Shown piece by piece: positions 6,540-52,855 of a DNA stretch of 55,216 nucleotides. The notes beneath the pieces are model-generated. The model had not been told where the DNA came from. It was given only the letters and a program-made list of their open reading frames with translations, and ran no database searches. Both the position numbers and the translations under genes were made by a program. The DNA comes from a virus, in IMG/VR virus record IMGVR_UViG_3300038549_000019, positions 1 through 55,216 of that record. One strand, given 5' to 3'. Each line of letters opens with the position of its first letter. Position 1 is the first letter of the stretch.

Positions 6540-8654
6540 TCACTCCCCATTAAGGGCCGGGGGATAGCCCATATTGCCTAGCGCGTCCGGTTCATCGGCT
6601 GGACGGGTAGCCGTAGTATTCACCGCCTCCTCCAGGACTCGGGCCATCCTGACCGCAGCTTCACCGGTCTTGATGTCCAGCTGGGATAGTGTTTCTGCTG
6701 TTTTTGCCCTGGTCAGTTCGGTCTCTGCGACCGTTTTAACCGCATCCGTTTGGGCCTTAATTGCCTTGGCTTGTGCTTCGGCAGCCGCTGCCTTGAGGTA
6801 TTCGGCCTGGGGGTCAGGCTGTTGAGCATTCAATGCCGCCTGCATGGCTTCCAGGTCCGCTTCAGTCGGCTTGAGAGCACCGAGTTTGACCAGCTTCTGC
6901 CTGAAGTATTCCCTGACATCCGTGATGCCTTCGCCTTCGATGTTCATCAGGACCATCGCCTGCAAAATCTGCTGTGTCTCTGGGTCCGTCACCACCGGGA
7001 GTAACGCAGTCAGGGATTTGACTGTGGCATCCCGCCTGCTCTGGCTTGTTGGGCCCACTTCCACAGAGACATCCATGTTGGCGGTTGATAAATCGTTCTC
7101 CAGCACAACCTTGCCGGTCTTGTCTAGCACTTTCCGGCCAATTGTTACCGGGAACGCCTTGCCCGATGCATCGAACCCCTTCATCCTGCGCTCTTCATCA
7201 CCAGGGCTATAAATCTCCTGGGCAATCGAGAGCCAAACCTCGCCACATCGCCGGACGGCCTTGGCCATGTTGGACATATAAATGAAGGACTGCATGTCCA
7301 GGCGCGTTTGGATTAGCTCAACAGCCTTGCCGGAGATATTGCTGACTAGATTATCGCCGTTTTGAGCACCACCCAGCAAGTCCTTGAGATCTTGCTCGGT
7401 CAGCTGCAACAAGGCCCCCAGGGCCGGTGGAACCTGTGGGGGCTGAGTTGATCCGACTGGGCCACTGACAACAGACTGGCCACTCGCATCTGTGACCGGG
7501 TTAATCAGCAGGTAGGGGTAATTATTGACGTTATCATCCGCCCACATGACCTGATGCCCTGAAACCTGCTCAGGGGTAAAGATTGGTTTCTGGACAGGGG
7601 ATAAAGCAGAAATCTCACCAAGGCGGGAAATCTGCATGTTTTTCAGCCGCTGACTGTCCTTTGCTGTGCGGACATGCCCCTGCATTCGCTCCACGCCGTC
7701 GATTACCCATCTCTTACCAAATACAGGGATGATGGGGATGTGCTTACCAGCGATAACCCCGCAGTCCTCAAGCACCTTCCCACCTGACATGAGATACTTG
7801 TGGACTCTGCGCATCTTAATCTTTCGGCGCTTGATCTCTTCGGACCCAGTTGAGTCCAGTTCCCTCAGCAATGCACCATCATCGTCCTCAAGATCATCCA
7901 AGGTATGGGATTGCTCCTCCCCTGTAATGAGCCTGTAGGTTACTAGCGTATCGCTCTGCTCCTCAACAACGTAGTATTCGGCAATGTACACCGTGTCCGG
8001 AGTTGACCAGTCAAACATTGACGCATCAATAGGCTTTTCCCAGGAGGTTGGATCATCACCCCACTCTGCGAGGTAATCCTCCCTATCCTGAGGGACCAGT
8101 ACGAAACAATATTTGGCGTCTGCCTTGTCCTGGCGTCTTGCGGTAGGGTCGAAAAACACACATGAATCGGCGTCAAAAATCGGCTCGAACCGCACACGTT
8201 GGCGGTCGTCCTCGGGATCCAGTTCATTTTCATAGCAGGCCCGGACTCGCCACGCCCCAAATCCGCCCCCCACGGCTTCCTCAAATGCATTATCGTAGGC
8301 CTCATCAGCGGCGCTATCCTGCTCATCTGCTCGATACAACGCATCGCATGTATCCGCCAATGAGTCCTTCTCACTGCCGTCCTTGGGGACAAAATCAACA
8401 CTGATACGGTTGTTCCGGTATTCATTGATGATGCGAATGATGTTGAGGTGAACTTTATTAACCTCAAACATTGGGCGGTTCTTGAACTGCTCTCCAAGTG
8501 CACCTTCCCACTGGGCACCCGCGATAGAGTAAAACCGCCTATCCTCAAGGCAAAGCTTGCGCTCATCCTGGCAGGCATCTATGGTCAGGTCAAACCGGCG
8601 CAGAGCCTCAGTGTGGACCCTGCGGAGGCGTTCCTCTGTGCTCATTCGCCCCAT
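6540..8654 (-). CDS. Portal protein, P22 gp1-like, copy 1
   Basis: A 704-aa protein (P22 portal is 725 aa). It forms the dodecameric ring through which DNA is packaged and ejected. Portal-like features: an early region with RFYSIAGAQWEGALGEQFKN and VHLNIIRIINEYRNNRISVDFVP, a central GKHIPIIPVFGKRWVIDG and AKDSQRLKN, and a C-terminal helical barrel region rich in Ala, Lys and Glu (QAEYLKAAAAEAQAKAIKAQTDAV). The first ATG is the right start: the alternative M4 is Q in copy 2. About a dozen substitutions separate the two variants. Confidence 0.9.
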   Translation of the reverse strand: MGRMSTEERLRRVHTEALRRFDLTIDACQDERKLCLEDRRFYSIAGAQWEGALGEQFKNRPMFEVNKVHLNIIRIINEYRNNRISVDFVPKDGSEKDSLADTCDALYRADEQDSAADEAYDNAFEEAVGGGFGAWRVRACYENELDPEDDRQRVRFEPIFDADSCVFFDPTARRQDKADAKYCFVLVPQDREDYLAEWGDDPTSWEKPIDASMFDWSTPDTVYIAEYYVVEEQSDTLVTYRLITGEEQSHTLDDLEDDDGALLRELDSTGSEEIKRRKIKMRRVHKYLMSGGKVLEDCGVIAGKHIPIIPVFGKRWVIDGVERMQGHVRTAKDSQRLKNMQISRLGEISALSPVQKPIFTPEQVSGHQVMWADDNVNNYPYLLINPVTDASGQSVVSGPVGSTQPPQVPPALGALLQLTEQDLKDLLGGAQNGDNLVSNISGKAVELIQTRLDMQSFIYMSNMAKAVRRCGEVWLSIAQEIYSPGDEERRMKGFDASGKAFPVTIGRKVLDKTGKVVLENDLSTANMDVSVEVGPTSQSRRDATVKSLTALLPVVTDPETQQILQAMVLMNIEGEGITDVREYFRQKLVKLGALKPTEADLEAMQAALNAQQPDPQAEYLKAAAAEAQAKAIKAQTDAVKTVAETELTRAKTAETLSQLDIKTGEAAVRMARVLEEAVNTTATRPADEPDALGNMGYPPALNGE

Positions 8655-10517: not shown

Positions 10518-10519
10518 GT

Positions 10520-13125: not shown

Positions 13126-13156
13126 TGTGTCCTCACTCTCCAGGATATACTTAGAT

Positions 13157-13561
13157 TTAACATTCGCAAGTGTGGTCTATCCACACGATGCCGAGATTTT
13201 GTGCAGCCCACACTTCAACTTGTGTTACATACTGCTGAAACTCTGATACAGTCAGTGATGACGTGCTTTGTGCGGTTGTTCCGCCGCACGGGAGGTCTAC
13301 AACGCCCAAAAATCGGCGCTTCAGGAACTCGTGCCAGATTTCGGCTGTGTATTGCCGTCCCTCGATCCAGGCATCCTCCTCTAGCTGATGCAGTAATCTC
13401 CAATAATATTTGTTTTGCGCCCTTGACCGTGTGGATTTCTCCGGCTTGATCTCGATTGCAAGTGGATTGCCTTCTAGCGCATATTTTTCCCATGCATCCT
13501 TGCAGTAGGATACCAACGCTTCCAGGTTCCGCTCGGATCGTAGGTAGTATGTCCTCATCAT
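13157..13561 (-). CDS. ninB: NinB-like recombination protein, copy 1
   Basis: A 134-aa protein matching the NinB family of lambda and P22, which takes part in phage recombination and has ssDNA-binding character. Shared pattern: RSRAQNKYYWRLLHQLEEDAW (compare NinB RSLDQNRKLW), IWHEFLKRRFLG, TAQSTSSLTVSEFQQYVTQVEVWAAQNLGI. The ATG overlaps the stop of the upstream regulator (ATGA). In lambdoid phages ninB lies between replication and late genes, as here. Confidence 0.87.
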   Translation of the reverse strand: MMRTYYLRSERNLEALVSYCKDAWEKYALEGNPLAIEIKPEKSTRSRAQNKYYWRLLHQLEEDAWIEGRQYTAEIWHEFLKRRFLGVVDLPCGGTTAQSTSSLTVSEFQQYVTQVEVWAAQNLGIVWIDHTCEC

Positions 13562-13761: not shown

Positions 13762-13777
13762 GTCCCCTCCTGTCATC

Positions 13778-13805: not shown

Positions 13806-13901
13806 CCCCATCCGTAGTTTTTTGGGTGGGTCTATTGCTGATTGCGAACCGCTAGTATTGTTTTCATTGGCGTTGTGGCTGGTCTTAGTACGTGTTCCCC
13901 A

Positions 13902-13953
13902 GAATTGGGCGTACCGTCATCCCATGGACGGTACGTCCAATTCAAAGTTAGGC
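13902..13953 (+). repeat. Left boundary of array: hairpin plus lone R' core (attC-0/attI-like), copy 1
   Basis: GAATTGGGCGTACCGTC and GACGGTACGTCCAATTC (13902-13918 and 13927-13943) form a 17-bp stem with one G-T pair, followed by AAAGTTAGGC. The right half looks like an attC right half with an intact R' core (GTTAGGC); no R'' core (RYYYAAC) precedes the stem. It may be a decayed attC, the primary insertion site of the array, or a terminator for cassette transcription. Confidence 0.5.
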
Positions 13954-13955
13954 GC

Positions 13956-14129
13956 TCAACGCAGCACGCACCAAAGCGCCCACCCAAGGCCGAAGCCAAT
14001 TCCCACTCGAAGCAGTTCCTTCCTTGCGAGGTTCTTTCCATCCTGAAACCCCCGCACGTAGGCCTGTTCCTCTGGTGTTTTGGCCAGATGGGCCTGTAAG
14101 CCGTCAAGCAGTCGTTCAAAATCAGGCAT
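13956..14129 (-). CDS. Cassette 1, gene b: 57-aa protein with C-terminal hydrophobic segment, copy 1
   Basis: ATG at 14127-14129 with AAGGTGG upstream; stop TGA at 13956, three bases from the boundary core GTTAGGC. Product MPDFERLLDGLQAHLAKTPE..., a soluble helical part followed by VGIGFGLGWALWCVLR, a possible membrane anchor. It overlaps cassette 1 gene a by 8 bp, so the two are translationally linked. No family recognised. Confidence 0.65.
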   Translation of the reverse strand: MPDFERLLDGLQAHLAKTPEEQAYVRGFQDGKNLARKELLRVGIGFGLGWALWCVLR

Positions 14130-14289
14130 TCGCCACCTTCTTTCTCGTCACCTCAAAGATTTCGGTTACCCCGTCCTGGGCGTAGACCGCTGCGTAATGC
14201 CGCGCCTCGCGCAGGGCGTCTTCCCTGGGGCCAACGGCGCTGGCAACTGGTTCCCCGTCACACCTCACTTCAAATTCAACTTCTTCCAT
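14122..14289 (-). CDS. Cassette 1, gene a: 55-aa unknown protein, copy 1
   Basis: ATG at 14289 with AGGAGAAACC upstream (an in-frame upstream start lacks one). Product MEEVEFEVRCDGEPVASAVG then REDALREARHYAAVYAQDG, predicted as beta strands plus a helix. The gene starts 31 bp from the R'' core of attC-1 and runs opposite to the attC polarity. No family recognised. Confidence 0.7.
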   Translation of the reverse strand: MEEVEFEVRCDGEPVASAVGPREDALREARHYAAVYAQDGVTEIFEVTRKKVANA

Positions 14290-14319
14290 GGTTTCTCCTG
14301 TGGTTCCAACCAACAACGC

Positions 14320-14403
14320 GCCTAACCCTCACATCAACAACGCTCACTTCGTTCGCTCGGACCCAGCCCTTGCGGGCTGGTCCGGTTATGTCGGGCGTTA
14401 GGC
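14320..14403 (+). repeat. attC-1 integron recombination site, copy 1
   Basis: R'' GCCTAAC (14320-14326), R' GTTAGGC (14397-14403), 84 bp. Left arm ACATCAAC against right arm reverse complement ACATAAC shows the extra C next to R'', so polarity is plus. Inner hairpin ACCCAGCCC-TTGC-GGGCTGGT. The central part is nearly the same as in attC-3. Confidence 0.88.
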
Positions 14404-14691
14404 AGCTAGACGTGCCTGCACGCAGAACCTGAAAGATGTCGCTCGCCACAGCCGTCGATACCACCCTGGCCACTGCGCTACAGCAGTCCCTAGGGCTGGC
14501 AGAAAGCTCCCGTAAAAACCCATGCGGGCTGGTCCACTGTATTCGGATGGTGCCCAAATACCCCAAGAAGGGCCTTGCCAATTCCCGCCAAGGTGGCCTA
14601 GATGGATGGCCGTGTAGCCCACTTGGATGCGGAGCAGAGTCCCTTTGTTTTGGCCCGAATGGGTGTTCCTGTAGATGGTGCAGATTTTCAC
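14398..14691 (-). CDS. Cassette 2: 97-aa protein of unknown function, copy 1
   Basis: GTG start at 14691 with AAGGAG seven bases upstream; stop TAA at 14398-14400 lies inside the R' core of attC-1. Product MKICTIYRNTHSGQNKGTLL..., rich in Trp and Gly, unfamiliar. A plus-strand ORF also crosses this cassette and ends in R'' of attC-2, but it has no ribosome site, so the minus frame is preferred. Moderate confidence because of unusual composition. Confidence 0.55.
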   Translation of the reverse strand: MKICTIYRNTHSGQNKGTLLRIQVGYTAIHLGHLGGNWQGPSWGIWAPSEYSGPARMGFYGSFLPALGTAVAQWPGWYRRLWRATSFRFCVQARLAA

Positions 14692-14720
14692 GCTTTTTCT
14701 CCTTTCGTTTCGTTTACGCG

Positions 14721-14800
14721 GCCTAACCGGTCATTCAACACCGGCCTTCGGCCTCGGACCCACGGCTCTGCCGTGGGCCGGTTAATTCGGTTCGTTAGAC
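14721..14800 (+). repeat. attC-2 integron recombination site, copy 1
   Basis: R'' GCCTAAC (14721-14727), R' GTTAGAC (14794-14800), 80 bp. Left arm ATTCAAC against right arm GGTTAATTCGGTTC gives the canonical extra C on the R'' side. Inner stem CCCACGG-CTCTG-CCGTGGG. Closest in look to the aadA-type attC end (TTAATTC...GTTAGA). Confidence 0.9.
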
Positions 14801-15403
14801 CGCCTCGGCCCATGCTTGGGCAGAACGGGCGATCCCCAGCAGCAGATCCCGAAACTCGGGCGGCGTCCGCTGCCTGTGTTTACTGCACATGTTCGCAATC
14901 ACCCCGCAACGTCGGGCGCTTTCGTACCCGCGTTCCGCTAGGCGTTTCTCTGGCAACCGCTGTTCTGCTGGTCCCCAGATCAGTTCCGGGGGCTTCGGAC
15001 CCACCGCCAACAGCCAGGTCTTTTTCCGGGCCTTGTGCCCGTAGTGCCCCTGCTCGACTTCGCAGGTCCATTCGGCGTAGCCGATCCGCAGCCATCCGGC
15101 CTTGGGCGGCTTGGGAATCCCGAAGGCATCCCAGGCTTTCGAGTGCGCGGGGTGCTCCAGCACTCCCCCGAACTGGCGCAGGCTGGCCAGCGCGGCGGCA
15201 AAGCATCCGTCATCATCGCCCGTCTGGTGGACCTTCTTCGTCATGCTGCCTTCCGAGAAACGCCCCCACCTCTGGCAGGGCGGGTGCGCCACAACGGGGT
15301 GCGGACCCTCGTAGCGCCTGGCGTCCCGCCCGATGTCCCACGGGTCCACCTCGGGCAACCCGTAGTAGCAGCCATTTTTCTCGACATACAGCGCCGCGAT
15401 CAC
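14795..15403 (-). CDS. Cassette 3: phage PPCQ-motif protein, cytosine methyltransferase-like, copy 1
   Basis: A 202-aa protein from GTG 15403 (AGGAGGAAAA upstream) to TAA 14795-14797 inside R' of attC-2. It belongs to a family common in phages: VDPWDIGRDARRYEGPHPVVAHPPCQRWG, CFAAALASLRQFGGVLEHPA, EWTCEVEQGHYGHKARKKTW and TPPEFRDLL. The PPCQ motif and the following GGVLEHP resemble motifs of C5-cytosine methyltransferases, but the AdoMet loop and target recognition domain are not evident. Possible role in modification or anti-restriction; unproven. Confidence 0.85.
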   Translation of the reverse strand: MIAALYVEKNGCYYGLPEVDPWDIGRDARRYEGPHPVVAHPPCQRWGRFSEGSMTKKVHQTGDDDGCFAAALASLRQFGGVLEHPAHSKAWDAFGIPKPPKAGWLRIGYAEWTCEVEQGHYGHKARKKTWLLAVGPKPPELIWGPAEQRLPEKRLAERGYESARRCGVIANMCSKHRQRTPPEFRDLLLGIARSAQAWAEAV

Positions 15404-15425
15404 TTTTCCTCCTCTCCGGTCGTCG

Positions 15426-15507
15426 GTCTAACCATTCCATCAACAACGCCCCTTCGGGGCTCGGACCCAGCCCTTGCGGGCTGGTCCGGTTATGTCGGTC
15501 GTTAGGC
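15426..15507 (+). repeat. attC-3 integron recombination site, copy 1
   Basis: R'' GTCTAAC (15426-15432), R' GTTAGGC (15501-15507), 82 bp. Contains TCAACAACGCC and the same ACCCAGCCC-TTGC-GGGCTGGT hairpin and TCCGGTTATGTCGG right arm as attC-1, so these two sites share a recent origin. Polarity plus. Confidence 0.9.
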
Positions 15508-15699
15508 GACACCATTCTGTTTCAGCCATCGATACAGTTCGCCCTTGATGTGGTCCGTCAGCTTCGTCCCAAAAGGACAGGTCTTTGCCCACTCATTCAC
15601 CAAGCCTCCGCTGTGGCAAATGAACTCTTCCAGCTTGTTGATTCTGGCTTGTAGATGCGCCTCTCTTACTGTGCATACCTCGTGATTGCGGTCCTTCAT
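15502..15699 (-). CDS. Cassette 4: 65-aa unknown protein, copy 1
   Basis: ATG at 15699 with GGAGG nine bases upstream; stop TAA at 15502-15504 in R' of attC-3. Product MKDRNHEVCTVREAHLQARI then NKLEEFICHSGGLVNEWAKT, helical, with two cysteines and basic residues. An upstream GTG would begin on the ribosome site and is rejected. No family recognised. Confidence 0.7.
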   Translation of the reverse strand: MKDRNHEVCTVREAHLQARINKLEEFICHSGGLVNEWAKTCPFGTKLTDHIKGELYRWLKQNGVA

Positions 15700-15747
15700 G
15701 ATTCGATTCCTCCACACTTTTTATTCTGTGTATGATTCGCGCCAGTC

Positions 15748-15806
15748 GCCTAACCGGGCGCTCAACCGGACCCCTGGCGGGGCCGGTTAGCTCGGAAGCG
15801 TTAGGT
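15748..15806 (+). repeat. attC-4 integron recombination site, copy 1
   Basis: R'' GCCTAAC (15748-15754), R' GTTAGGT (15800-15806), 59 bp, the classic short form. Left arm GCTCAACCGGAC pairs with right arm GGCCGGTTAGCTC leaving one extra C; tip CCCC-TGGC-GGGG. Nearly the same as attC-5 and attC-6. Confidence 0.93.
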
Positions 15807-16007
15807 GGCTTCGGGCGGCTCCACGCCAGCCTCCCGGAATACCTGCTCAATCAGGCGCCTGGCCGGGCCTCTGGGCTGGCGCGTCCCGTGAGCCCACTGG
15901 TGGACGGTGCGGGGGGTAGTCCCCAGAGCCTCAGCTACCTGGGCCACACCCCCCAGGATCTCCGCCAGGCGGTCCCAGGGGGCGGGGAGTGTTGTGGGGC
16001 GCGGCAT
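15801..16007 (-). CDS. Cassette 5, gene b: HTH regulator, copy 1
   Basis: A 68-aa XRE-like protein (VAQVAEALGTTPRTVHQWAH is a clear helix-turn-helix). The ATG at 16007 overlaps the stop of gene a (TGATG); stop TAA at 15801-15803 lies in R' of attC-4. It is paralogous to the phage regulator at 13558-13761. With gene a and a private promoter it forms a self-contained two-gene cassette; an addiction module or autoregulated switch is possible but not shown. Confidence 0.8.
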   Translation of the reverse strand: MPRPTTLPAPWDRLAEILGGVAQVAEALGTTPRTVHQWAHGTRQPRGPARRLIEQVFREAGVEPPEAT

Positions 16008-16279
16008 CAAATCCCCAGCAAAATGCGAGCGGCTCCGAGAGCCTTTTCCTCAGAATCGCCGGGGACAAAACCATCCTCGGCGGAGGGGCAGCACTCGCGC
16101 AGGGCGATCACGAAGTTTTCCGCTGCTTCTGTGTAGGCCCCGAAATCGTCAAGGCTGGAGATAGCTTCGAGGGCCTTCTTGATCTTCCACTCGAAAACTC
16201 GGGTGTCGTCGAATTTCCCAGACAAAACGACGATTCGTGCTCGGATCGCGTTCAGGATTTCAATCTTGACATGGCTCAT
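16007..16279 (-). CDS. Cassette 5, gene a: 90-aa unknown protein, copy 1
   Basis: ATG at 16279 with AAGGAGCCGAG upstream. Product MSHVKIEILNAIRARIVVLS..., ending ALGAARILLGI, helical. It is driven by its own promoter (16319-16347). The 40 bp ending just after its start codon (16274-16313) are the same as 23506-23545 before an early-operon gene. First gene of a bicistronic cassette with the HTH protein. Function unknown. Confidence 0.75.
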   Translation of the reverse strand: MSHVKIEILNAIRARIVVLSGKFDDTRVFEWKIKKALEAISSLDDFGAYTEAAENFVIALRECCPSAEDGFVPGDSEEKALGAARILLGI

Positions 16280-16318
16280 CTCGGCTCCTTGTGTCCTGGG
16301 CTCCTTGCCCGACAACAC

Positions 16319-16347
16319 AATATCGGCTCAATGTTCCGAATGCGCAA
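16319..16347 (-). promoter_or_regulatory. Promoter inside cassette 5, copy 1
   Basis: Minus strand: TTGCGC (16342-16347), 17-bp spacer, GATATT (16319-16324), preceded by a C-run and an A/T-tract. Same architecture as the promoters near 17.87, 21.97 and 23.48 kb. A cassette that carries a phage-type promoter is unusual. Confidence 0.68.
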
Positions 16348-16377
16348 GGGGGGGCAAAAGATTTTTTTAGGCCCGCC

Positions 16378-16436
16378 ACCTAACCACTCGCTTAACCGGA
16401 CCCCTGTCGGGGCCGGTTAGCTCGGAACCGTTAGGC
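16378..16436 (+). repeat. attC-5 integron recombination site, copy 1
   Basis: R'' ACCTAAC (16378-16384), R' GTTAGGC (16430-16436), 59 bp. Left arm GCTTAACCGGAC against right arm GGCCGGTTAGCTC; the extra base is T instead of C. Tip CCCC-TGTC-GGGG. It lies about 9 bp from the A/T-tract of the cassette 5 promoter. Confidence 0.92.
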
Positions 16437-16682
16437 CTCTGGCTCTTGGTCCCATCCCGAGTCCTCGCGCATCCTCTTCCCGCACCATCGGCAACAGGTC
16501 CAGTGGTGCCCCAGCCCATTCCCCTCCCACAGGCCGTTATCCTCGTGGGGACACTGCTCGATCAGTGCCTTTTCGGCAGGGCGGTAGATCGTGTCGTCGT
16601 ACTCCCGCATTCTGCGGCTCGCCTCGCGGGTGCGCTCCCACAGCAAATTCTTCAGCGCGGCTTTTATCTCGGGTCCGTTCAT
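16431..16682 (-). CDS. Cassette 6: 83-aa zinc-binding protein, copy 1
   Basis: ATG at 16682 with AGGAGGAAAG upstream (a longer in-frame start lacks a site); stop TAA at 16431-16433 in R' of attC-5. Product MNGPEIKAALKNLLWERTRE..., with CPHEDNGLW and CCRWCGKRM forming a probable zinc ribbon in the C-terminal half. Small zinc-binding proteins are also frequent in the early operon of this phage. Function unknown. Confidence 0.75.
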   Translation of the reverse strand: MNGPEIKAALKNLLWERTREASRRMREYDDTIYRPAEKALIEQCPHEDNGLWEGNGLGHHWTCCRWCGKRMREDSGWDQEPEA

Positions 16683-16714
16683 CTTTCCTCCTATGCCCGC
16701 CCCGTCTCTCATCG

Positions 16715-16773
16715 GCCTAACCCGTCGCTCAACCGGACCCCTGGCGGGGCCGGTTAGCTCGGGAGCGTTAGGC
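16715..16773 (+). repeat. attC-6 integron recombination site, copy 1
   Basis: R'' GCCTAAC (16715-16721), R' GTTAGGC (16767-16773), 59 bp. Left arm GCTCAACCGGAC, right arm GGCCGGTTAGCTC, tip CCCC-TGGC-GGGG. Textbook attC with plus polarity. Confidence 0.94.
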
Positions 16774-16774
16774 G

Positions 16775-17113
16775 CTACTTGAACAGTGCTTCAAAGATTT
16801 TGCCGCGAGAGTAGCTGGATTCCAGGCGCTTCTTCACTTCGTCCGTCATGCCCCTAGCGAGTTCTTCTGTGATCTGGTTTGCGGTGATGATGGCAAGTGA
16901 AACAAGCCCTTCTTTGGATTCGACAAGTTGAGCTTTAATCACCGGCACAATTTCAGTAGCCATGAACGCGGTAACTTCATCCTGGATTAGCTTTGAAACA
17001 ATAGGGCTCATCTCCCAGTGGGCTTGTCGCGTAGCTTCGGCGGTCAATCCAGCAATAATGGAAGGTTTAGCCTCGTCCAAAATTGAAGCAATTTGTTCTT
17101 GCGAAAGCTGCAT
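16775..17113 (-). CDS. Cassette 7: 112-aa helical protein, copy 1
   Basis: ATG at 17113 with GGGAG seven bases upstream; the frame runs on upstream through attC-7 but without a start site. Stop TAG at 16775, one base beyond R' of attC-6. Product MQLSQEQIASILDEAKPSII... ends SYSRGKIFEALFK; long amphipathic helices throughout. The ending recalls small proteins seen in phages, but I cannot name a family. The coding base composition looks lower in GC than cassette 3. Confidence 0.75.
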   Translation of the reverse strand: MQLSQEQIASILDEAKPSIIAGLTAEATRQAHWEMSPIVSKLIQDEVTAFMATEIVPVIKAQLVESKEGLVSLAIITANQITEELARGMTDEVKKRLESSYSRGKIFEALFK

Positions 17114-17127
17114 TGCGTTTCTCCCGC

Positions 17128-17227
17128 GCCTAACTCGGCGCTCAACCGGACCCAACCGCCACGGGCATCCGGCTTTATTCGTGTTTGGACCAATGGCGGT
17201 TGGTCCGGTTAGCTTGGGCCGTTAGGC
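17128..17227 (+). repeat. attC-7 integron recombination site, copy 1
   Basis: R'' GCCTAAC (17128-17134), R' GTTAGGC (17221-17227), 100 bp. Long paired arms CTCAACCGGACCCAACCGCC and TGGCGGTTGGTCCGGTTAG; the left arm has two extra C bases (extrahelical), the usual hallmark of attC polarity. Larger unpaired tip than the others. Confidence 0.93.
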
Positions 17228-17228
17228 C

Positions 17229-17492
17229 TCAACGCCAGTTAACATGCATGCCTTCGGTTTCTCTGTGGTCCCACCGGTGCCCACACATCTCACACACCTT
17301 TTCAGACAGAGCAATATACCAAAATGCATCACCTTTGGTCACTAGTCGGTGCTGTGGTCGCAATAAAATGTAAGTGTTGAAACTCTCGCAATCTGGACAA
17401 CGCAATGTGTTTAACAAACCGCCTAACCCATCGTTCAACCCGGACGTTACCTCCATGGACTGCTGTTCTCCTTCGTTATTCGTGATTTCCAT
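17229..17492 (-). CDS. Cassette 8: 87-aa zinc-ribbon protein, copy 1
   Basis: ATG at 17492 just after GGAGGGAG; stop TGA at 17229, one base beyond R' of attC-7. RCPDCESF and KVCEMCGHRW give a four-cysteine zinc ribbon. The first ~24 codons lie inside attC-8, whose R'' core (17421-17427) is read as part of the gene, so coding sequence and recombination site overlap. Function unknown. Confidence 0.78.
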   Translation of the reverse strand: MEITNNEGEQQSMEVTSGLNDGLGGLLNTLRCPDCESFNTYILLRPQHRLVTKGDAFWYIALSEKVCEMCGHRWDHRETEGMHVNWR

Positions 17493-17545
17493 ACTCCCTC
17501 CAAAGTTTCGGCGTCGGTAACGCCGGTTAAGTCCAGTCGCTAGGC
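17421..17545 (+). repeat. attC-8, last and atypical attC of the array, copy 1
   Basis: R'' GCCTAAC (17421-17427), R' GCTAGGC (17539-17545; T to C against GTTAGGC), 125 bp. Arms CAACCCGGACGTTACC and GGTAACGCCGGTTAAG pair with extra bases on the R'' side. The large tip holds the ribosome site and start codon of the cassette 8 gene. The changed R' core should weaken cleavage and may fix the array end. Confidence 0.7.
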
Positions 17546-17836
17546 GCGATTCAAAGCGTTGCGCGCTATTTCGTGGGCATTTACGATATCCTTCGAATAT
17601 TGCACGGCCACCAATTCTTCCCGGTATCGTTCAGACCTGTCCTGCGTATCGTTCAACTGTTCGATAATTTCTAATAGTTGATCTTCTACTTGCCGTCCCC
17701 TTGTCGCCTCTATTCGGCTGAGCAGCCATTCCACTCTCTCGTCTAGCCCGGCGCGCTTCCACTCCGTGTCATCAAATAGGCCGTCATGCAGCATCCACTT
17801 GATTCGGTTGAGTTGGTCCTCTGTGTTGCCGTCCAT
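17540..17836 (-). CDS. 98-aa coiled-coil protein upstream of the array, copy 1
   Basis: ATG at 17836 with AGGTGAG upstream; stop TAG at 17540-17542 inside the altered R' of attC-8. Product MDGNTEDQLNRIKWMLHDGL..., with a long charged helix (LLEIIEQLNDTQDRSERYRE). It has its own promoter at 17855-17883 and is the first gene read into the array, so this promoter probably also drives the cassettes. Function unknown. Confidence 0.75.
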   Translation of the reverse strand: MDGNTEDQLNRIKWMLHDGLFDDTEWKRAGLDERVEWLLSRIEATRGRQVEDQLLEIIEQLNDTQDRSERYREELVAVQYSKDIVNAHEIARNALNRA

Positions 17837-17854
17837 CTCTCTCACCTCGATACC

Positions 17855-17883: not shown

Positions 17884-17912
17884 GGGGGGGGACGTGCAAA
17901 CTTTTTTTGTTA

Positions 17913-18449
17913 TTAAGTGTTGTTACCACTGCCATAGTTGTCATCCCACCCGCCCGAATATGTTTCTTTATCCTGGGCGCACTCGATGCATTTATTTTTG
18001 ATTTCGCGCTGCAATCTATTATTAAGACCAACTTCGTACGATAGAGCGCTCATGAGCCCCTCGTTTTGTTTTTCTAGCCAGTCAATATGCCCATTGGCTA
18101 TTTCCAGCTCTTTTTTTAATTTGTTTACAATATTTTGCTGCATACAGCCTCCAATCAGTGTTTGCACCTGTAACCATAGCTCCGCCTCTGTCCCGTGCGC
18201 CGCCTCCCAAGTTTTCGGCCCAGCGTGATAGGCGACTCCCCATCCCCCTTGCCGGTGGTGGGCCGGGCACAGCGGGATCGAGTGGAGGTGGCAGGACCGT
18301 TTGCCCGCTCCAATATGCCGCCCTGTCTCAGGGTGGCGTTTGAGGTGGTGCACCTCCGCAGGCGTCCCAGGATACCCATTATTCAGGCAAACTATGCACC
18401 CAAGCGATACAATAGCGTCAAGGTATTCTTTCTCCTCATTTGTAGCCAC
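17913..18449 (-). CDS. Ref-like HNH nuclease with coiled-coil extension, copy 1
   Basis: A 178-aa protein. Residues 1-100 match the nuclease domain of P1 Ref-type (RecA-dependent) HNH proteins: LGCIVCLNNGYPGTPAEVHH, IPLCPAHHRQGGWGVAYH and TWEAAHGTEAELW. Residues 103-178 are a coiled coil (LKKELEIANGHIDWLEKQNE) with CIEC and a Gly/Asn-rich end. Met103 is preceded by GGAGG at good spacing, so a separate C-terminal product is possible. The ATG overlaps the zinc-ribbon gene end by 14 bp. Confidence 0.82.
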   Translation of the reverse strand: MATNEEKEYLDAIVSLGCIVCLNNGYPGTPAEVHHLKRHPETGRHIGAGKRSCHLHSIPLCPAHHRQGGWGVAYHAGPKTWEAAHGTEAELWLQVQTLIGGCMQQNIVNKLKKELEIANGHIDWLEKQNEGLMSALSYEVGLNNRLQREIKNKCIECAQDKETYSGGWDDNYGSGNNT

Positions 18450-18876
18450 TGTCTCGCCTCGCCTTCATTCGTGCCTTTGCGCGTCTGTTTGCTGCGATAC
18501 ATTTTTTGCATCGTCTATATCCAGGCTCTGGATCATGCGCTCCACAAGTGCTACATTTGCCCTCCTGTCGCCTGCGTTCTCGGTATTTTTTTGTTGCCTC
18601 GTCGTGGTACTCCTGGCAGTACCCACATTTTTGCCGCCCTGGCATGGCCTCCGCTTTACCGCATGATATACAAATTCCCAGCGCTGCCAAGGCCTTCCTG
18701 CGCACTAATACACGGGGCGGGGTCCCCTTCCTGTTGTCTCGGCACTTTTGGCACGATCCGAGCCCTCCGTCCGCAGGCGCACCACAATAATAGCAAAGGC
18801 CAGCCGCTCGTCTTTCCCAATAAATTGTCTTTTTTTGCTTCCTGTTTTTCCGTTGCTCCAGGATTTCCGCCCTCAC
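18436..18876 (-). CDS. Triple zinc-ribbon basic protein, copy 1
   Basis: A 146-aa protein with three CxxC...CxxC units (CYYCG/CQKC, CISCG/CGYC, CSTCG/CKKC) separated by Arg/Lys-rich linkers, so probably nucleic-acid binding. It starts with GTG overlapping the DnaB stop (GTGA), with GGGGAGG upstream. Such proteins occur in phage replication or recombination blocks. The C-terminal RRAKARMKARRDSGYK is strongly basic. Exact role unknown. Confidence 0.78.
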   Translation of the reverse strand: MRAEILEQRKNRKQKKTIYWERRAAGLCYYCGAPADGGLGSCQKCRDNRKGTPPRVLVRRKALAALGICISCGKAEAMPGRQKCGYCQEYHDEATKKYRERRRQEGKCSTCGAHDPEPGYRRCKKCIAANRRAKARMKARRDSGYK

Positions 18877-20225
18877 AATTGCCTCCCCTGCCGTGGAGCT
18901 TGTTGACTGGTATATGACGTTTCCCTAGTAACAACCTCATATCGTTGATATTGTCCGTTGAACGCCATGGGAATTTGCCCCAGGGGCCCCGCACGGTGCT
19001 TTGCGATGAGCAGTTCGGCTGTATTATCAACCTCTCCCGTATCGGGCTTGTTTTGCCGGTGCAAAAACAACACACAATCAGCATCCTGCTCGATACAACC
19101 AGACCCACGCAAATCCGCTAATCTAGGTGCCGTGCTGGATCTTCCTTCAACCTCCCGGTTCAGCTGACTCAGGAGTAATACTGGGACGTTTTTGTCTTTG
19201 GCACAGATTTTGAGAGCCCTGGTGATGTCCCCCAACGCTTGATCTTCCCTGCGTTTTGCGTCCGGTTGTGATATGAGTTGGAGATAATCTACTACCACCA
19301 GCGCAGGCAATTCACCGGCCTGCTGGATAGCCCTGTCAACCTGTGATACAATTTGTGATACATTGATAGCAGCCCTGTCATTTATTAATAGCTGTTTCTT
19401 CCGCAGGTCAGCCACTGCCCTGTGTACAAGCCCACGCTGGTAATCCCTAGCCGTGCCGGTGGTTAGCACGCTCATCGGGACAGACGCTGTATTGGCCACT
19501 AGCCTCGTCATGATCTCCTCGTCTGGCATCTCCAGGGAAAAAACCAGTACTGGCCCTGTGGCACATGCAGCCAATGCCCAGTTCAGAGCTAGGGCCGTCT
19601 TGCCTATCCCGGGCCTAGCGGCCAGCACATACAGCCTACCAGGGCACAACCCCCCCAGCACTGCGTCTACCCGAGCCATACCCGTTGGAGCACCCCCCGT
19701 CCAGGCATGGCCGTCTAACCGGCCTAGGACGCGTTCTAAGGCCTCCGAACACTGTTTCAGGTGGTTACCCTGCCCGCCAACCGCCAGACGCGCCAGAGAG
19801 GCCCCTAGGGCCTCTGCAAGGGCATCCGGTGTATCCTGGGCAAATGCGTCCCGTACGAGCTGGGTCCCCAGCCGGATCAAATCCCGGCGTTTGCGGTCCC
19901 GCTGGAGGATCGCTACCAGCGCCCCAGGCCGCGCCACGTCTAGCCCGGATAGGATCTCGGTCAGCCCGGACCAGTCGCCAACACGCCCGAGATCACCGTG
20001 GCTCCGCAGCTGGTCGGCTAGGGCGGCGAGGCTCAGCTCCTGCCCGGCGGCCTGGAGGGCGGCGGCAGCCCGGTAGACCGCCCGGTGCTGCGGCACCAAA
20101 AAATCCTCCGGGACCAGCACGGGCAGCCATTCCGCCGCATCCGCGTCTGCCCCTGGTGCGCACAGGGTGGTCAGCAGGTCGCGTTCCACGCGGGGGTCAT
20201 GGGGGGGGGCCTGATTTGGGGTCAC
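18873..20225 (-). CDS. dnaB: Replicative DNA helicase DnaB, copy 1 (complete)
   Basis: A 450-aa DnaB-family helicase. N-terminal domain (RVERDLLTTLC; DFLVPQHRAVYRAAAAL), RecA-like domain with Walker A ARPGIGKTA (about residue 207), FSLEMPDEEIMTRL, Walker B LVVVDYLQLI and LLLSQLNREVEGR. It unwinds the fork together with the O-like initiator encoded just upstream. GTG start overlaps the initiator stop (GTGA), with GGAGG seven bases before. Phage P or host loader functions are not separately seen; the phage encodes its own helicase like P22 gp12. Confidence 0.94.
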   Translation of the reverse strand: MTPNQAPPHDPRVERDLLTTLCAPGADADAAEWLPVLVPEDFLVPQHRAVYRAAAALQAAGQELSLAALADQLRSHGDLGRVGDWSGLTEILSGLDVARPGALVAILQRDRKRRDLIRLGTQLVRDAFAQDTPDALAEALGASLARLAVGGQGNHLKQCSEALERVLGRLDGHAWTGGAPTGMARVDAVLGGLCPGRLYVLAARPGIGKTALALNWALAACATGPVLVFSLEMPDEEIMTRLVANTASVPMSVLTTGTARDYQRGLVHRAVADLRKKQLLINDRAAINVSQIVSQVDRAIQQAGELPALVVVDYLQLISQPDAKRREDQALGDITRALKICAKDKNVPVLLLSQLNREVEGRSSTAPRLADLRGSGCIEQDADCVLFLHRQNKPDTGEVDNTAELLIAKHRAGPLGQIPMAFNGQYQRYEVVTRETSYTSQQAPRQGRQL

Positions 20226-49211: not shown

Positions 49212-49263
49212 GAATTGGGCGTACCGTCATCCCATGGACGGTACGTCCAATTCAAAGTTAGGC
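49212..49263 (+). repeat. Left array boundary hairpin plus R' core, copy 2
   Basis: Same as 13902-13953. Confidence 0.5.
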
Positions 49264-49265
49264 GC

Positions 49266-49439
49266 TCAACGCAGCACGCACCAAAGCGCCCACCCAAGGC
49301 CGAAGCCAATTCCCACTCGAAGCAGTTCCTTCCTTGCGAGGTTCTTTCCATCCTGAAACCCCCGCACGTAGGCCTGTTCCTCTGGTGTTTTGGCCAGATG
49401 GGCCTGTAAGCCGTCAAGCAGTCGTTCAAAATCAGGCAT
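49266..49439 (-). CDS. Cassette 1 gene b (57 aa), copy 2
   Basis: Same as 13956-14129: MPDFERLLDGLQ..., C-terminal hydrophobic segment. Confidence 0.65.
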   Translation of the reverse strand: MPDFERLLDGLQAHLAKTPEEQAYVRGFQDGKNLARKELLRVGIGFGLGWALWCVLR

Positions 49440-49599
49440 TCGCCACCTTCTTTCTCGTCACCTCAAAGATTTCGGTTACCCCGTCCTGGGCGTAGACCGC
49501 TGCGTAATGCCGCGCCTCGCGCAGGGCGTCTTCCCTGGGGCCAACGGCGCTGGCAACTGGTTCCCCGTCACACCTCACTTCAAATTCAACTTCTTCCAT
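49432..49599 (-). CDS. Cassette 1 gene a (55 aa), copy 2
   Basis: Same as 14122-14289: MEEVEFEVRCDG..., AGGAG ribosome site. Confidence 0.7.
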   Translation of the reverse strand: MEEVEFEVRCDGEPVASAVGPREDALREARHYAAVYAQDGVTEIFEVTRKKVANA

Positions 49600-49629
49600 G
49601 GTTTCTCCTGTGGTTCCAACCAACAACGC

Positions 49630-49713
49630 GCCTAACCCTCACATCAACAACGCTCACTTCGTTCGCTCGGACCCAGCCCTTGCGGGCTGGTCCGGTTATG
49701 TCGGGCGTTAGGC
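49630..49713 (+). repeat. attC-1, copy 2
   Basis: Same as 14320-14403. Confidence 0.88.
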
Positions 49714-50001
49714 AGCTAGACGTGCCTGCACGCAGAACCTGAAAGATGTCGCTCGCCACAGCCGTCGATACCACCCTGGCCACTGCGCTACAGCAGTCCC
49801 TAGGGCTGGCAGAAAGCTCCCGTAAAAACCCATGCGGGCTGGTCCACTGTATTCGGATGGTGCCCAAATACCCCAAGAAGGGCCTTGCCAATTCCCGCCA
49901 AGGTGGCCTAGATGGATGGCCGTGTAGCCCACTTGGATGCGGAGCAGAGTCCCTTTGTTTTGGCCCGAATGGGTGTTCCTGTAGATGGTGCAGATTTTCA
50001 C
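49708..50001 (-). CDS. Cassette 2 gene (97 aa), copy 2
   Basis: Same as 14398-14691; GTG start, stop TAA inside the attC-1 R' core. Confidence 0.55.
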   Translation of the reverse strand: MKICTIYRNTHSGQNKGTLLRIQVGYTAIHLGHLGGNWQGPSWGIWAPSEYSGPARMGFYGSFLPALGTAVAQWPGWYRRLWRATSFRFCVQARLAA

Positions 50002-50030
50002 GCTTTTTCTCCTTTCGTTTCGTTTACGCG

Positions 50031-50110
50031 GCCTAACCGGTCATTCAACACCGGCCTTCGGCCTCGGACCCACGGCTCTGCCGTGGGCCGGTTAATTCGG
50101 TTCGTTAGAC
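50031..50110 (+). repeat. attC-2, copy 2
   Basis: Same as 14721-14800. Confidence 0.9.
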
Positions 50111-50713
50111 CGCCTCGGCCCATGCTTGGGCAGAACGGGCGATCCCCAGCAGCAGATCCCGAAACTCGGGCGGCGTCCGCTGCCTGTGTTTACTGCACAT
50201 GTTCGCAATCACCCCGCAACGTCGGGCGCTTTCGTACCCGCGTTCCGCTAGGCGTTTCTCTGGCAACCGCTGTTCTGCTGGTCCCCAGATCAGTTCCGGG
50301 GGCTTCGGACCCACCGCCAACAGCCAGGTCTTTTTCCGGGCCTTGTGCCCGTAGTGCCCCTGCTCGACTTCGCAGGTCCATTCGGCGTAGCCGATCCGCA
50401 GCCATCCGGCCTTGGGCGGCTTGGGAATCCCGAAGGCATCCCAGGCTTTCGAGTGCGCGGGGTGCTCCAGCACTCCCCCGAACTGGCGCAGGCTGGCCAG
50501 CGCGGCGGCAAAGCATCCGTCATCATCGCCCGTCTGGTGGACCTTCTTCGTCATGCTGCCTTCCGAGAAACGCCCCCACCTCTGGCAGGGCGGGTGCGCC
50601 ACAACGGGGTGCGGACCCTCGTAGCGCCTGGCGTCCCGCCCGATGTCCCACGGGTCCACCTCGGGCAACCCGTAGTAGCAGCCATTTTTCTCGACATACA
50701 GCGCCGCGATCAC
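50105..50713 (-). CDS. Cassette 3 PPCQ-motif, cytosine methyltransferase-like protein, copy 2
   Basis: Same as 14795-15403 (202 aa, VAHPPCQRWG). Confidence 0.85.
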   Translation of the reverse strand: MIAALYVEKNGCYYGLPEVDPWDIGRDARRYEGPHPVVAHPPCQRWGRFSEGSMTKKVHQTGDDDGCFAAALASLRQFGGVLEHPAHSKAWDAFGIPKPPKAGWLRIGYAEWTCEVEQGHYGHKARKKTWLLAVGPKPPELIWGPAEQRLPEKRLAERGYESARRCGVIANMCSKHRQRTPPEFRDLLLGIARSAQAWAEAV

Positions 50714-50735
50714 TTTTCCTCCTCTCCGGTCGTCG

Positions 50736-50817
50736 GTCTAACCATTCCATCAACAACGCCCCTTCGGGGCTCGGACCCAGCCCTTGCGGGCTGGTCCGGT
50801 TATGTCGGTCGTTAGGC
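50736..50817 (+). repeat. attC-3, copy 2
   Basis: Same as 15426-15507. Confidence 0.9.
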
Positions 50818-51009
50818 GACACCATTCTGTTTCAGCCATCGATACAGTTCGCCCTTGATGTGGTCCGTCAGCTTCGTCCCAAAAGGACAGGTCTTTGCCC
50901 ACTCATTCACCAAGCCTCCGCTGTGGCAAATGAACTCTTCCAGCTTGTTGATTCTGGCTTGTAGATGCGCCTCTCTTACTGTGCATACCTCGTGATTGCG
51001 GTCCTTCAT
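50812..51009 (-). CDS. Cassette 4 gene (65 aa), copy 2
   Basis: Same as 15502-15699. Confidence 0.7.
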   Translation of the reverse strand: MKDRNHEVCTVREAHLQARINKLEEFICHSGGLVNEWAKTCPFGTKLTDHIKGELYRWLKQNGVA

Positions 51010-51057
51010 GATTCGATTCCTCCACACTTTTTATTCTGTGTATGATTCGCGCCAGTC

Positions 51058-51116
51058 GCCTAACCGGGCGCTCAACCGGACCCCTGGCGGGGCCGGTTAG
51101 CTCGGAAGCGTTAGGT
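51058..51116 (+). repeat. attC-4, copy 2
   Basis: Same as 15748-15806. Confidence 0.93.
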
Positions 51117-51317
51117 GGCTTCGGGCGGCTCCACGCCAGCCTCCCGGAATACCTGCTCAATCAGGCGCCTGGCCGGGCCTCTGGGCTGGCGCGTCCCGTG
51201 AGCCCACTGGTGGACGGTGCGGGGGGTAGTCCCCAGAGCCTCAGCTACCTGGGCCACACCCCCCAGGATCTCCGCCAGGCGGTCCCAGGGGGCGGGGAGT
51301 GTTGTGGGGCGCGGCAT
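51111..51317 (-). CDS. Cassette 5 gene b, HTH regulator, copy 2
   Basis: Same as 15801-16007 (68 aa). Confidence 0.8.
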   Translation of the reverse strand: MPRPTTLPAPWDRLAEILGGVAQVAEALGTTPRTVHQWAHGTRQPRGPARRLIEQVFREAGVEPPEAT

Positions 51318-51589
51318 CAAATCCCCAGCAAAATGCGAGCGGCTCCGAGAGCCTTTTCCTCAGAATCGCCGGGGACAAAACCATCCTCGGCGGAGGGGCA
51401 GCACTCGCGCAGGGCGATCACGAAGTTTTCCGCTGCTTCTGTGTAGGCCCCGAAATCGTCAAGGCTGGAGATAGCTTCGAGGGCCTTCTTGATCTTCCAC
51501 TCGAAAACTCGGGTGTCGTCGAATTTCCCAGACAAAACGACGATTCGTGCTCGGATCGCGTTCAGGATTTCAATCTTGACATGGCTCAT
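51317..51589 (-). CDS. Cassette 5 gene a (90 aa), copy 2
   Basis: Same as 16007-16279, with the shared 40-bp leader. Confidence 0.75.
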   Translation of the reverse strand: MSHVKIEILNAIRARIVVLSGKFDDTRVFEWKIKKALEAISSLDDFGAYTEAAENFVIALRECCPSAEDGFVPGDSEEKALGAARILLGI

Positions 51590-51628
51590 CTCGGCTCCTT
51601 GTGTCCTGGGCTCCTTGCCCGACAACAC

Positions 51629-51657
51629 AATATCGGCTCAATGTTCCGAATGCGCAA
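51629..51657 (-). promoter_or_regulatory. Promoter inside cassette 5, copy 2
   Basis: Same as 16319-16347 (TTGCGC, 17 bp, GATATT). Confidence 0.68.
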
Positions 51658-51687
51658 GGGGGGGCAAAAGATTTTTTTAGGCCCGCC

Positions 51688-51746
51688 ACCTAACCACTCG
51701 CTTAACCGGACCCCTGTCGGGGCCGGTTAGCTCGGAACCGTTAGGC
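51688..51746 (+). repeat. attC-5, copy 2
   Basis: Same as 16378-16436. Confidence 0.92.
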
Positions 51747-51992
51747 CTCTGGCTCTTGGTCCCATCCCGAGTCCTCGCGCATCCTCTTCCCGCACCATCG
51801 GCAACAGGTCCAGTGGTGCCCCAGCCCATTCCCCTCCCACAGGCCGTTATCCTCGTGGGGACACTGCTCGATCAGTGCCTTTTCGGCAGGGCGGTAGATC
51901 GTGTCGTCGTACTCCCGCATTCTGCGGCTCGCCTCGCGGGTGCGCTCCCACAGCAAATTCTTCAGCGCGGCTTTTATCTCGGGTCCGTTCAT
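51741..51992 (-). CDS. Cassette 6 zinc-binding protein (83 aa), copy 2
   Basis: Same as 16431-16682. Confidence 0.75.
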   Translation of the reverse strand: MNGPEIKAALKNLLWERTREASRRMREYDDTIYRPAEKALIEQCPHEDNGLWEGNGLGHHWTCCRWCGKRMREDSGWDQEPEA

Positions 51993-52024
51993 CTTTCCTC
52001 CTATGCCCGCCCCGTCTCTCATCG

Positions 52025-52083
52025 GCCTAACCCGTCGCTCAACCGGACCCCTGGCGGGGCCGGTTAGCTCGGGAGCGTTAGGC
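52025..52083 (+). repeat. attC-6, copy 2
   Basis: Same as 16715-16773. Confidence 0.94.
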
Positions 52084-52084
52084 G

Positions 52085-52423
52085 CTACTTGAACAGTGCT
52101 TCAAAGATTTTGCCGCGAGAGTAGCTGGATTCCAGGCGCTTCTTCACTTCGTCCGTCATGCCCCTAGCGAGTTCTTCTGTGATCTGGTTTGCGGTGATGA
52201 TGGCAAGTGAAACAAGCCCTTCTTTGGATTCGACAAGTTGAGCTTTAATCACCGGCACAATTTCAGTAGCCATGAACGCGGTAACTTCATCCTGGATTAG
52301 CTTTGAAACAATAGGGCTCATCTCCCAGTGGGCTTGTCGCGTAGCTTCGGCGGTCAATCCAGCAATAATGGAAGGTTTAGCCTCGTCCAAAATTGAAGCA
52401 ATTTGTTCTTGCGAAAGCTGCAT
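52085..52423 (-). CDS. Cassette 7 helical protein (112 aa), copy 2
   Basis: Same as 16775-17113. Confidence 0.75.
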   Translation of the reverse strand: MQLSQEQIASILDEAKPSIIAGLTAEATRQAHWEMSPIVSKLIQDEVTAFMATEIVPVIKAQLVESKEGLVSLAIITANQITEELARGMTDEVKKRLESSYSRGKIFEALFK

Positions 52424-52437
52424 TGCGTTTCTCCCGC

Positions 52438-52537
52438 GCCTAACTCGGCGCTCAACCGGACCCAACCGCCACGGGCATCCGGCTTTATTCGTGTTTGGAC
52501 CAATGGCGGTTGGTCCGGTTAGCTTGGGCCGTTAGGC
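52438..52537 (+). repeat. attC-7, copy 2
   Basis: Same as 17128-17227. Confidence 0.93.
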
Positions 52538-52538
52538 C

Positions 52539-52802
52539 TCAACGCCAGTTAACATGCATGCCTTCGGTTTCTCTGTGGTCCCACCGGTGCCCACACATCT
52601 CACACACCTTTTCAGACAGAGCAATATACCAAAATGCATCACCTTTGGTCACTAGTCGGTGCTGTGGTCGCAATAAAATGTAAGTGTTGAAACTCTCGCA
52701 ATCTGGACAACGCAATGTGTTTAACAAACCGCCTAACCCATCGTTCAACCCGGACGTTACCTCCATGGACTGCTGTTCTCCTTCGTTATTCGTGATTTCC
52801 AT
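52539..52802 (-). CDS. Cassette 8 zinc-ribbon protein (87 aa), copy 2
   Basis: Same as 17229-17492; its 5' end lies inside attC-8. Confidence 0.78.
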   Translation of the reverse strand: MEITNNEGEQQSMEVTSGLNDGLGGLLNTLRCPDCESFNTYILLRPQHRLVTKGDAFWYIALSEKVCEMCGHRWDHRETEGMHVNWR

Positions 52803-52855
52803 ACTCCCTCCAAAGTTTCGGCGTCGGTAACGCCGGTTAAGTCCAGTCGCTAGGC
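52731..52855 (+). repeat. attC-8 (atypical), copy 2
   Basis: Same as 17421-17545; R' is GCTAGGC. Confidence 0.7.

Follow-up and report, generated by a model that had tools for sequence, protein, structure and literature searches.

How does a row of gene cassettes flanked by what look like integron attC sites come to lie in the genome of a P22-like phage, and is it a piece of a bacterial integron or something that belongs to the phage? The window analyzed here is the whole 55,216-nucleotide stretch of an IMG/VR viral contig, and an earlier note, made from the sequence alone, had proposed that an eight-unit integron cassette array occupies positions 13947-17545. To test this, a covariance model was built from 13 bacterial integron attC sites, none of them from this window. 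The model recovered seven of the eight proposed sites with E between 3e-11 and 9e-5 (that is, E<=1e-4), all on the + strand: attC 1 (14320..14403; 29.9 bits, E 2e-5), attC 2 (14721..14800; 27.3 bits, E 9e-5), attC 3 (15426..15507; 34.1 bits, E 2e-6), attC 4 (15748..15806; 49.7 bits, E 2e-10), attC 5 (16378..16436; 43.5 bits, E 8e-9), attC 6 (16715..16773; 53.2 bits, E 3e-11), and attC 7 (17128..17227; 45.3 bits, E 3e-9). The criterion set beforehand by the note, at least six significant attC hits, was thus fulfilled. The same seven sites recurred in a second copy of the array 35,310 bp downstream, and no other place in the 55 kb had E<0.1. The eighth site (17421..17545, + strand), which forms the right end of the array, gave only a partial hit of 14.6 bits because its R′ core reads GCTAGGC instead of GTTAGGC, although R″, L″, and L′ are visible in the sequence; this R′ is the phage side of the junction, and with its altered core the site is probably poorly active.

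Other controls pointed in the same direction. The opposite strand of the same sites scored up to 37 bits lower, dinucleotide shuffles gave about zero sites, and 0 of 31 relatives chosen by their portal protein alone carried any attC hit, so the model is specific. A search of Rfam returned nothing at this locus. The R″ and R′ cores lie at the proposed borders, the sites measure 59-125 bp as the note had stated, and the extra base in L″ (CTCAACC against CTAACC) is real. In a comparison of phage attC sites, eight of nine L-stem pairs were kept by compensatory change (274 double-change cells against 67 in shuffles), and the extrahelical base was present in 150 of 150 phage sites. The observation made in the earlier note is therefore confirmed: the window holds seven significant tandem attC sites and one degenerate one, with R″, L″, L′, R′, and an extrahelical base, where a cluster of attC sites lacking an integrase (CALIN) needs at least two. 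No integron integrase (TIGR02249) and no tyrosine recombinase was found anywhere in the contig, which makes the array a CALIN and not a complete integron.

The surroundings are those of a P22-like podovirus, as the note had held. Pfam searches identified ninB on the left (13157..13561, − strand; 5e-9), and a ref-like RecA-dependent nuclease (17913..18449, −; 6e-10) and a dnaB-like replicative helicase (18873..20225, −; 2e-73) on the right, in addition to an M15 peptidase, a P22-like portal (6540..8654, −; 5e-158), and a P22 coat protein (4e-89). A flanking phage gene (17540..18031, −) ends at the right junction of the array, its stop codon lying in CTAGGC. The possibility that phage and integron were joined only by faulty assembly has to be considered, because the contig runs 1.56 times around a 35.3-kb genome with two diverged halves, and its assembly is therefore not clean; the second array copy (49257..52855, + strand) is identical to the first, with no mismatches over 13001-19906 compared with the region offset by +35310. 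However, the same combination recurs in 13 other IMG/VR contigs with P22-like portals and in the complete circular phage MW202573, and the direction of the cassette genes matches that of the phage operon. A chimera is therefore rejected as very improbable.

Eight cassettes lie between the R′ cores at 13947 and 17539, two of which (1 and 5) hold two ORFs, and every ORF is on the − strand. Cassette 1 contains ORF a (13956..14129, 57 aa), 43% identical to an ORF beside the array of the sequence designated G004, and ORF b (14122..14316, 64 aa), 60% identical to an ORF inside the array of G025. Cassette 2 contains an ORF of low confidence (14398..14691, 97 aa). The cassette 3 gene (14795..15403, 202 aa) belongs to phrog_12600 (PHROG E 1e-62) and is weakly methyltransferase-like; its predicted structure (pLDDT 71) matched methyltransferases best in the PDB, but none of the matches was significant. 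Its homologs are cassette genes in G018 (60%) and G027 (35%), and an ordinary phage gene in Persinger. Cassette 4 contains an ORF of 71 aa (15502..15717), and cassette 5 contains ORF a (15801..16010, 69 aa), Cro/YdaS-like HTH (PHROG 5e-8; Pfam YdaS 1e-6, below the cut-off), and ORF b (16007..16318, 103 aa). Cassette 6 contains an ORF of 93 aa (16431..16712), and cassette 7 one of 112 aa starting from ATG 17113 (16775..17113), or of 126 aa if the TTG at 17155, inside attC 7, is used. The cassette 8 gene (17229..17492, 87 aa) is zinc-ribbon-like. In cassettes 2, 3, 4, 5 (ORF a), and 6, the stop codon lies in the R′ core. In cassette 8, GGAGG and the ATG lie inside the tip of attC 8, but this is the only one of the eight cassettes in the window whose start is clearly inside the attC.

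What the note had missed is that the cassette genes run antiparallel to their attC sites, whereas a gene followed by its attC in the same direction is the usual, though not strictly required, arrangement of a cassette. In the window, six of seven scored cassettes were antiparallel and one was unclear. Among attC-bearing IMG/VR contigs, 128 cassettes were antiparallel, 2 parallel, and 15 unclear; in bacterial IntI loci, taken from genome contigs, 22 were parallel, 4 antiparallel, and 12 unclear (Fisher p 1e-20, the cassettes not being independent of each other). When the analysis was replicated with a different attC motif, 60 were antiparallel, 14 parallel, and 14 unclear, 12 of the 14 parallel ones residing in only two contigs, L273 and L302, the record of the latter having a canonical full-length intI. 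In the phage set, the stop codon lay inside the attC core in 55 of 128 cases, and the start lay inside the attC in 32 of 77 long sites, where ribosome site and start codon can occupy the hairpin tip. The SD and AUG were mostly unpaired in the predicted hairpin (0.66 and 0.64, respectively, against a mean of 0.37).

This design bears on two further explanations. A piece of an ordinary bacterial chromosomal integron could have been captured, as in the Vibrio anguillarum phages of Qi et al. 2023 (PMC9892861); such capture is documented, and the attC sites are of the general proteobacterial type and are recognized by the bacterial model. However, bacterial cassettes are mainly parallel to attC, the cassette 3 gene has phage relatives both as cassette genes and as an ordinary phage gene, and stops and starts are fitted into the attC sites. 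Simple capture is therefore rejected as very unlikely. Alternatively, the repeats might be RNA-level elements, that is, translation-start or insulator hairpins between small phage genes and not recombination sites, for which the position of SD and AUG in many hairpin tips would speak. The conserved extrahelical base, the match to the bacterial attC model with its strand preference, and the mobility and integrase data described below argue against a pure RNA element, which is likewise regarded as very unlikely.

Related phages differ by whole cassettes, as the note's idea of reshuffling would require. An exact 416-bp cassette duplication was found in phage G027, and an exact 430-bp insertion in G028 compared with its close relative G005, both ending at the integrase cut point G|TTAGGC; movement of single units at G|TTRRRY was thus seen in these relatives. 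That such differences arise by ordinary homologous or illegitimate recombination between repeated attC sequences, with no integrase acting any more, is considered unlikely, though less so than the other alternatives: most array-bearing contigs, including this one, lack intI, and some attC copies within one array are 89-95% alike. On the other hand, the G027 and G028 junctions fall exactly at G|TTAGGC although the flanking attC copies differ in sequence, whereas homologous exchange would place the switch anywhere within the shared stretch. Three phages (G002, L077, and G069) and one prophage (L097) carry an integron integrase gene beside arrays of the same design, and these four enzymes form one clade (support 100/98).

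The interpretation given in the earlier note is thus only partly supported. A genuine attC array, a P22-like backbone, the absence of an integrase, and reshuffling between related phages all held. It was incomplete in that phage-borne attC clusters had already been published (PMC9892861), including in the P22-like phage MW202573; in that the antiparallel genes do not look like bacterial cassettes picked up by a phage; and in that the integrase need not come from the host, as the note had assumed, because phages related by this architecture carry their own intI. For this particular phage, an integrase in trans is still required.

The explanation favored here, with fairly high confidence, is a true integron cassette array that has become part of the phage's own expression program. 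The sequences themselves establish that the sites are attC; that the genes are read on the attC bottom-strand side, in the direction of the flanking phage operon (dnaB to ninB to lysis); that each cassette holds its own reading unit, often with the stop codon inside the R′ core (GCC TAA C) at one end, and with ribosome site and start codon either inside the attC tip or past R″ at the other; and that related phages have gained or duplicated whole cassettes at the cut point. It is inferred, in contrast, that an integron integrase folds and cuts the attC bottom strand and inserts, deletes, or copies cassettes, and that any cassette works in any position because each is a complete translational unit needing only read-through from the phage promoter. 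For this phage, the enzyme would come from a co-resident intI-bearing prophage, a co-infecting phage, or a host integron; because no integrase is present and the end site has a degenerate R′, its array may also now be frozen. Cassettes carry small phage accessory genes (methyltransferases, HTH proteins, Gp157/Gam-type early genes, and many unknown ones), so the probable benefit is rapid exchange of anti-host functions, although the absence of arrays among the 31 portal-selected relatives means that any advantage is not universal. A more far-reaching reading, considered somewhat more likely than not, is that a distinct phage-resident integron lineage exists, with its own integrase clade and its own cassette pool circulating among unrelated phages, in which attC is at once recombination hairpin and translation-start module, so that cassettes are position-independent translational units read from phage operons. 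Integrons are viewed as bacterial devices that phages occasionally pick up; systematic reversal of gene direction, stops and starts built into attC, and a phage integrase clade would mean that phages run their own cassette-shuffling system for accessory genes. This would give them a modular route to swap counter-defense genes, and would make it testable how cassette direction, replication, and translation constrain integrons.

No uninterrupted insertion site was found in a relative. DnaB as a probe in IMG/VR retrieved no relatives, megablast of the region against cultured phages gave nothing, and a search for relatives sharing the left flank gave one chance match (L178) without attC; the portal-selected relatives, at most 63% identical over the portal, were rejected as a source of empty sites. 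The right junction, G|CTAGGC, fits the target G|NT of attG insertion sites (Loot 2024, cited in PMC12901181), and the array ends could be non-attI insertions, but without an empty relative this rests on the junction sequence alone. At the left boundary, the core GTTAGGC (13947..13953, +) is preceded by GTCCAAT-TCAAA, with attI-like spacing, and by a 40-bp palindrome (13903-13942); the statistic for an attI-like L box at 13 array boundaries was weak (P about 0.03), and no such motif is claimed.

Among known systems, the closest are the CALINs in phage genomes (PMC9892861), which likewise are attC clusters without intI and include DNA methyltransferase genes among their cassettes; five of six phage attC sites tested in that study recombined with IntI1. 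The cassettes are described there as typically oriented or mixed, and antiparallel design, start codons inside attC, or a phage intI clade are not reported in the sections consulted, nor was a description of the inverted design found in the open-access papers searched; MW202573, however, is also antiparallel by the present analysis. The arrays seen here reach 8-19 sites and recur in dozens of viral contigs. With sedentary and mobile bacterial integrons (class 1, Vibrio, Xanthomonas; R100 aadA1 was used as the yardstick), they share attC architecture, cut point, extrahelical base, and, where intI is present, the position of attC relative to intI. They differ in the reversed gene direction, in the lack of a Pc-type divergent layout, intI and cassette genes being co-directional, and in the inferred expression from the phage operon. 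The nin region of lambdoid and P22-like phages is also a dense block of small accessory genes between replication and late genes, but here the genes are packaged as attC-bounded cassettes.

Pattern searches of the 55,216-bp IMG/VR virus record detected attC-like sites between 13.9 and 17.6 kb, and almost none in dinucleotide-shuffled versions of the sequence. To test the identity of these sites independently, 13 short attC sites were taken from bacterial integron loci (class 1 and chromosomal), aligned, and used to build a covariance model (R1) containing the known R and L stems. R1 recognized seven of the eight sites claimed in the earlier note, with E-values from 3e-11 to 9e-5 and always on the + strand. 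It recognized the same seven again 35,310 bp downstream, and nothing else in the window at E<0.1. When the filters were switched off, the reverse strand of the best site scored only 16 bits, as compared with 53 bits for the + strand. The eighth site is degenerate, its R' being GCTAGGC. Thus, the observation of an attC array is confirmed. The contig runs 1.56 times round a genome of ∼35.3 kb (positions 1-19906 and 35305-55216); the two passes differ by about 6% in the structural genes up to ∼12.0 kb and are then identical for 7.9 kb, including the array, which may reflect either two co-occurring strains joined in assembly or a shared recombined segment.

Profile searches against Pfam placed NinB, M15 peptidase, RecA-dependent nuclease (Ref), DnaB, P22 portal, terminase, and P22 coat around the array, whereas neither an integron integrase nor any tyrosine recombinase was found to be encoded in the contig. 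Directly to the left of the array (13903-13942) lies a 40-bp imperfect palindrome (AATTGGGCGTACCGT...ACGGTACGTCCAATT), which could be a terminator, an operator, or part of an attI-like site.

In bacteria, a cassette consists of a gene followed by its attC. The aadA1 cassette of R100 was used as a yardstick: there, the extra C of L'' is on the sense strand of the gene and R'' follows the stop codon. In the window, the extra C is on the + strand but the genes are on the - strand, which is fixed by the gene of cassette 3 (14795-15403; phrog_12600, E 1e-62) and by the HTH gene of cassette 5. Thus, the genes run against their attC sites and with the phage operon. Five of the eight cassettes end in a stop codon formed by the R' core itself (GCC TAA C and variants). 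In cassette 8, the GGAGG and the ATG lie inside the tip of attC 8, which is the only case in the window where a start is clearly located inside an attC.

To address whether this design is found elsewhere, IMG/VR was scanned for one attC motif, which gave 29 contigs, eight of them with P22-like portals above the family cut-off. Across these contigs plus the window, two further loci (L077 and L097, see below), and phage MW202573, R1 found 195 sites at E≤0.05. With borders defined by R1 and direction called from a codon score (with an arbitrary margin), 145 cassettes were scored, of which 128 were antiparallel to their attC, 2 parallel, and 15 unclear. In contrast, the bacterial IntI loci, admittedly a small baseline of 38 cassettes, gave 22 parallel, 4 antiparallel, and 12 unclear (Fisher p 1e-20, although cassettes within one array are not independent). 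One of the two "parallel" phage cassettes, in contig G027, contains an antiparallel homolog of cassette 3 and is, therefore, probably misjudged. A second scan with a different motif (46 stretches, 172 R1 hits) gave 60 antiparallel, 14 parallel, and 14 unclear cassettes; five more P22-like portals occur in that set. Twelve of the 14 parallel cassettes fall in only two contigs, L273 and L302 (IMGVR_UViG_2834908352_000001), the record of the latter carrying a canonical full-length intI. These two records carry cassettes mostly in the normal direction; parts of them are probably bacterial integrons included in viral records, and they serve as an internal control that the method can detect cassettes of normal direction.

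Of the 128 antiparallel cassettes, 55 have the stop codon inside the R' core, and among 77 with long attC sites, 32 have both ribosome site and start inside the attC, where SD and AUG are mostly left open by the predicted pairing. The stems covary strongly; despite the fact that this alignment was fitted to the model and, thus, leans that way, the signal collapsed in the slid controls. The extrahelical base was present in all 150 aligned phage sites.

Evidence for cassette mobility came from comparing related arrays. Contigs G028 and G005 are close relatives (shared segments 90-98% identical), but G028 contains one extra cassette of 430 bp inserted exactly between G and TTAGGC. G027 (IMGVR_UViG_3300035703_000212) carries one 416-bp cassette twice (10969-11384 and 13710-14125); the two copies are identical and end exactly at G|TTAGGC on both sides, while the neighboring sequence differs. 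This is the mark of integrase-type cassette movement; homologous recombination between repeats, the alternative, would not be expected to respect the cut point. Homologs of cassette genes of the window occur inside the arrays of other phages (60% in G018, 60% in G025, and 35% in G027) and beside one in G004 (43%). Cassette 3 also exists as an ordinary phage gene, for example, in Pseudomonas phage Persinger. Its protein has a PPCQ motif and weak predicted fold similarity to DNA methyltransferases, and a homolog is annotated as a putative DNA methylase in Rhodobacter phage Ebor. Other cassettes encode DNA methyltransferases, Gp157, Gam, and many unknown small proteins. Of 31 relatives chosen by portal similarity (29 IMG/VR records of 14-40 kb plus MW202867 and MW202475), none had an attC hit, which indicates that the arrays are sporadic acquisitions and that the model gives no false positives in this set.

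Although the window lacks an integrase, contig G002, which contains phage capsid, tape-measure, and integrase genes, carries a full integron integrase (TIGR02249, 428 bits) directly beside an attC array with antiparallel cassettes. The same layout was observed for L077, which has phage integrase and endolysin genes, and for L097, a sequence of a Burkholderiales MAG with a phage-type integrase. In G002, L077, and L097, the direction of attC relative to intI is canonical; only the genes are turned round. The phage contig G069 also has a copy of intI (locus L308, 12797-13877), which is split over two frames, apparently frameshifted. A similar gene (..MAENxKIEWxDHTFNPWxGC..) lies next to intI in both the L097 prophage (11088-12149) and G069 (L308, 10326-11507), possibly indicating a linked function. 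The four integrases form one clade with support 100/98 among 50 sequences, but sampling was centered on G002.

Clusters of attC sites in phages are not new as such: Qi et al. 2023 (PMC9892861) reported 17 of them without integrase and showed that five of six tested phage attC sites recombine with IntI1. Their MW202573 is itself P22-like and, by the present analysis, has antiparallel genes. Neither the antiparallel design nor starts inside attC were found to be reported in the open-access papers searched, which left aside subscription papers, preprints, and the supplement of Qi et al. The present arrays consist of antiparallel integron cassettes in what is apparently a phage-resident integron lineage. 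The interpretation given in the earlier note, that an array within a phage backbone would make the phage a vehicle for cassettes with host integrases acting in trans, is partly supported and is extended here. The sequences themselves demonstrate the attC sites, the reversed gene direction, the placement of stops and starts, and the cassette junctions in related phages, whereas recombination of the sites by an integrase, and expression of the cassettes, are inferred. In bacterial integrons, attC hairpins are described as barriers to translation of the next cassette (PMC8876359); here, they contain or directly precede the start. Another translation start (CACAAGGAGCCGAGATG) is carried by a 47-bp stretch that occurs, nearly identical, once inside cassette 5 (16274-16320, - strand) and once outside the array on the other strand (23499-23545, + strand), and a similar start lies near 23.96 kb.
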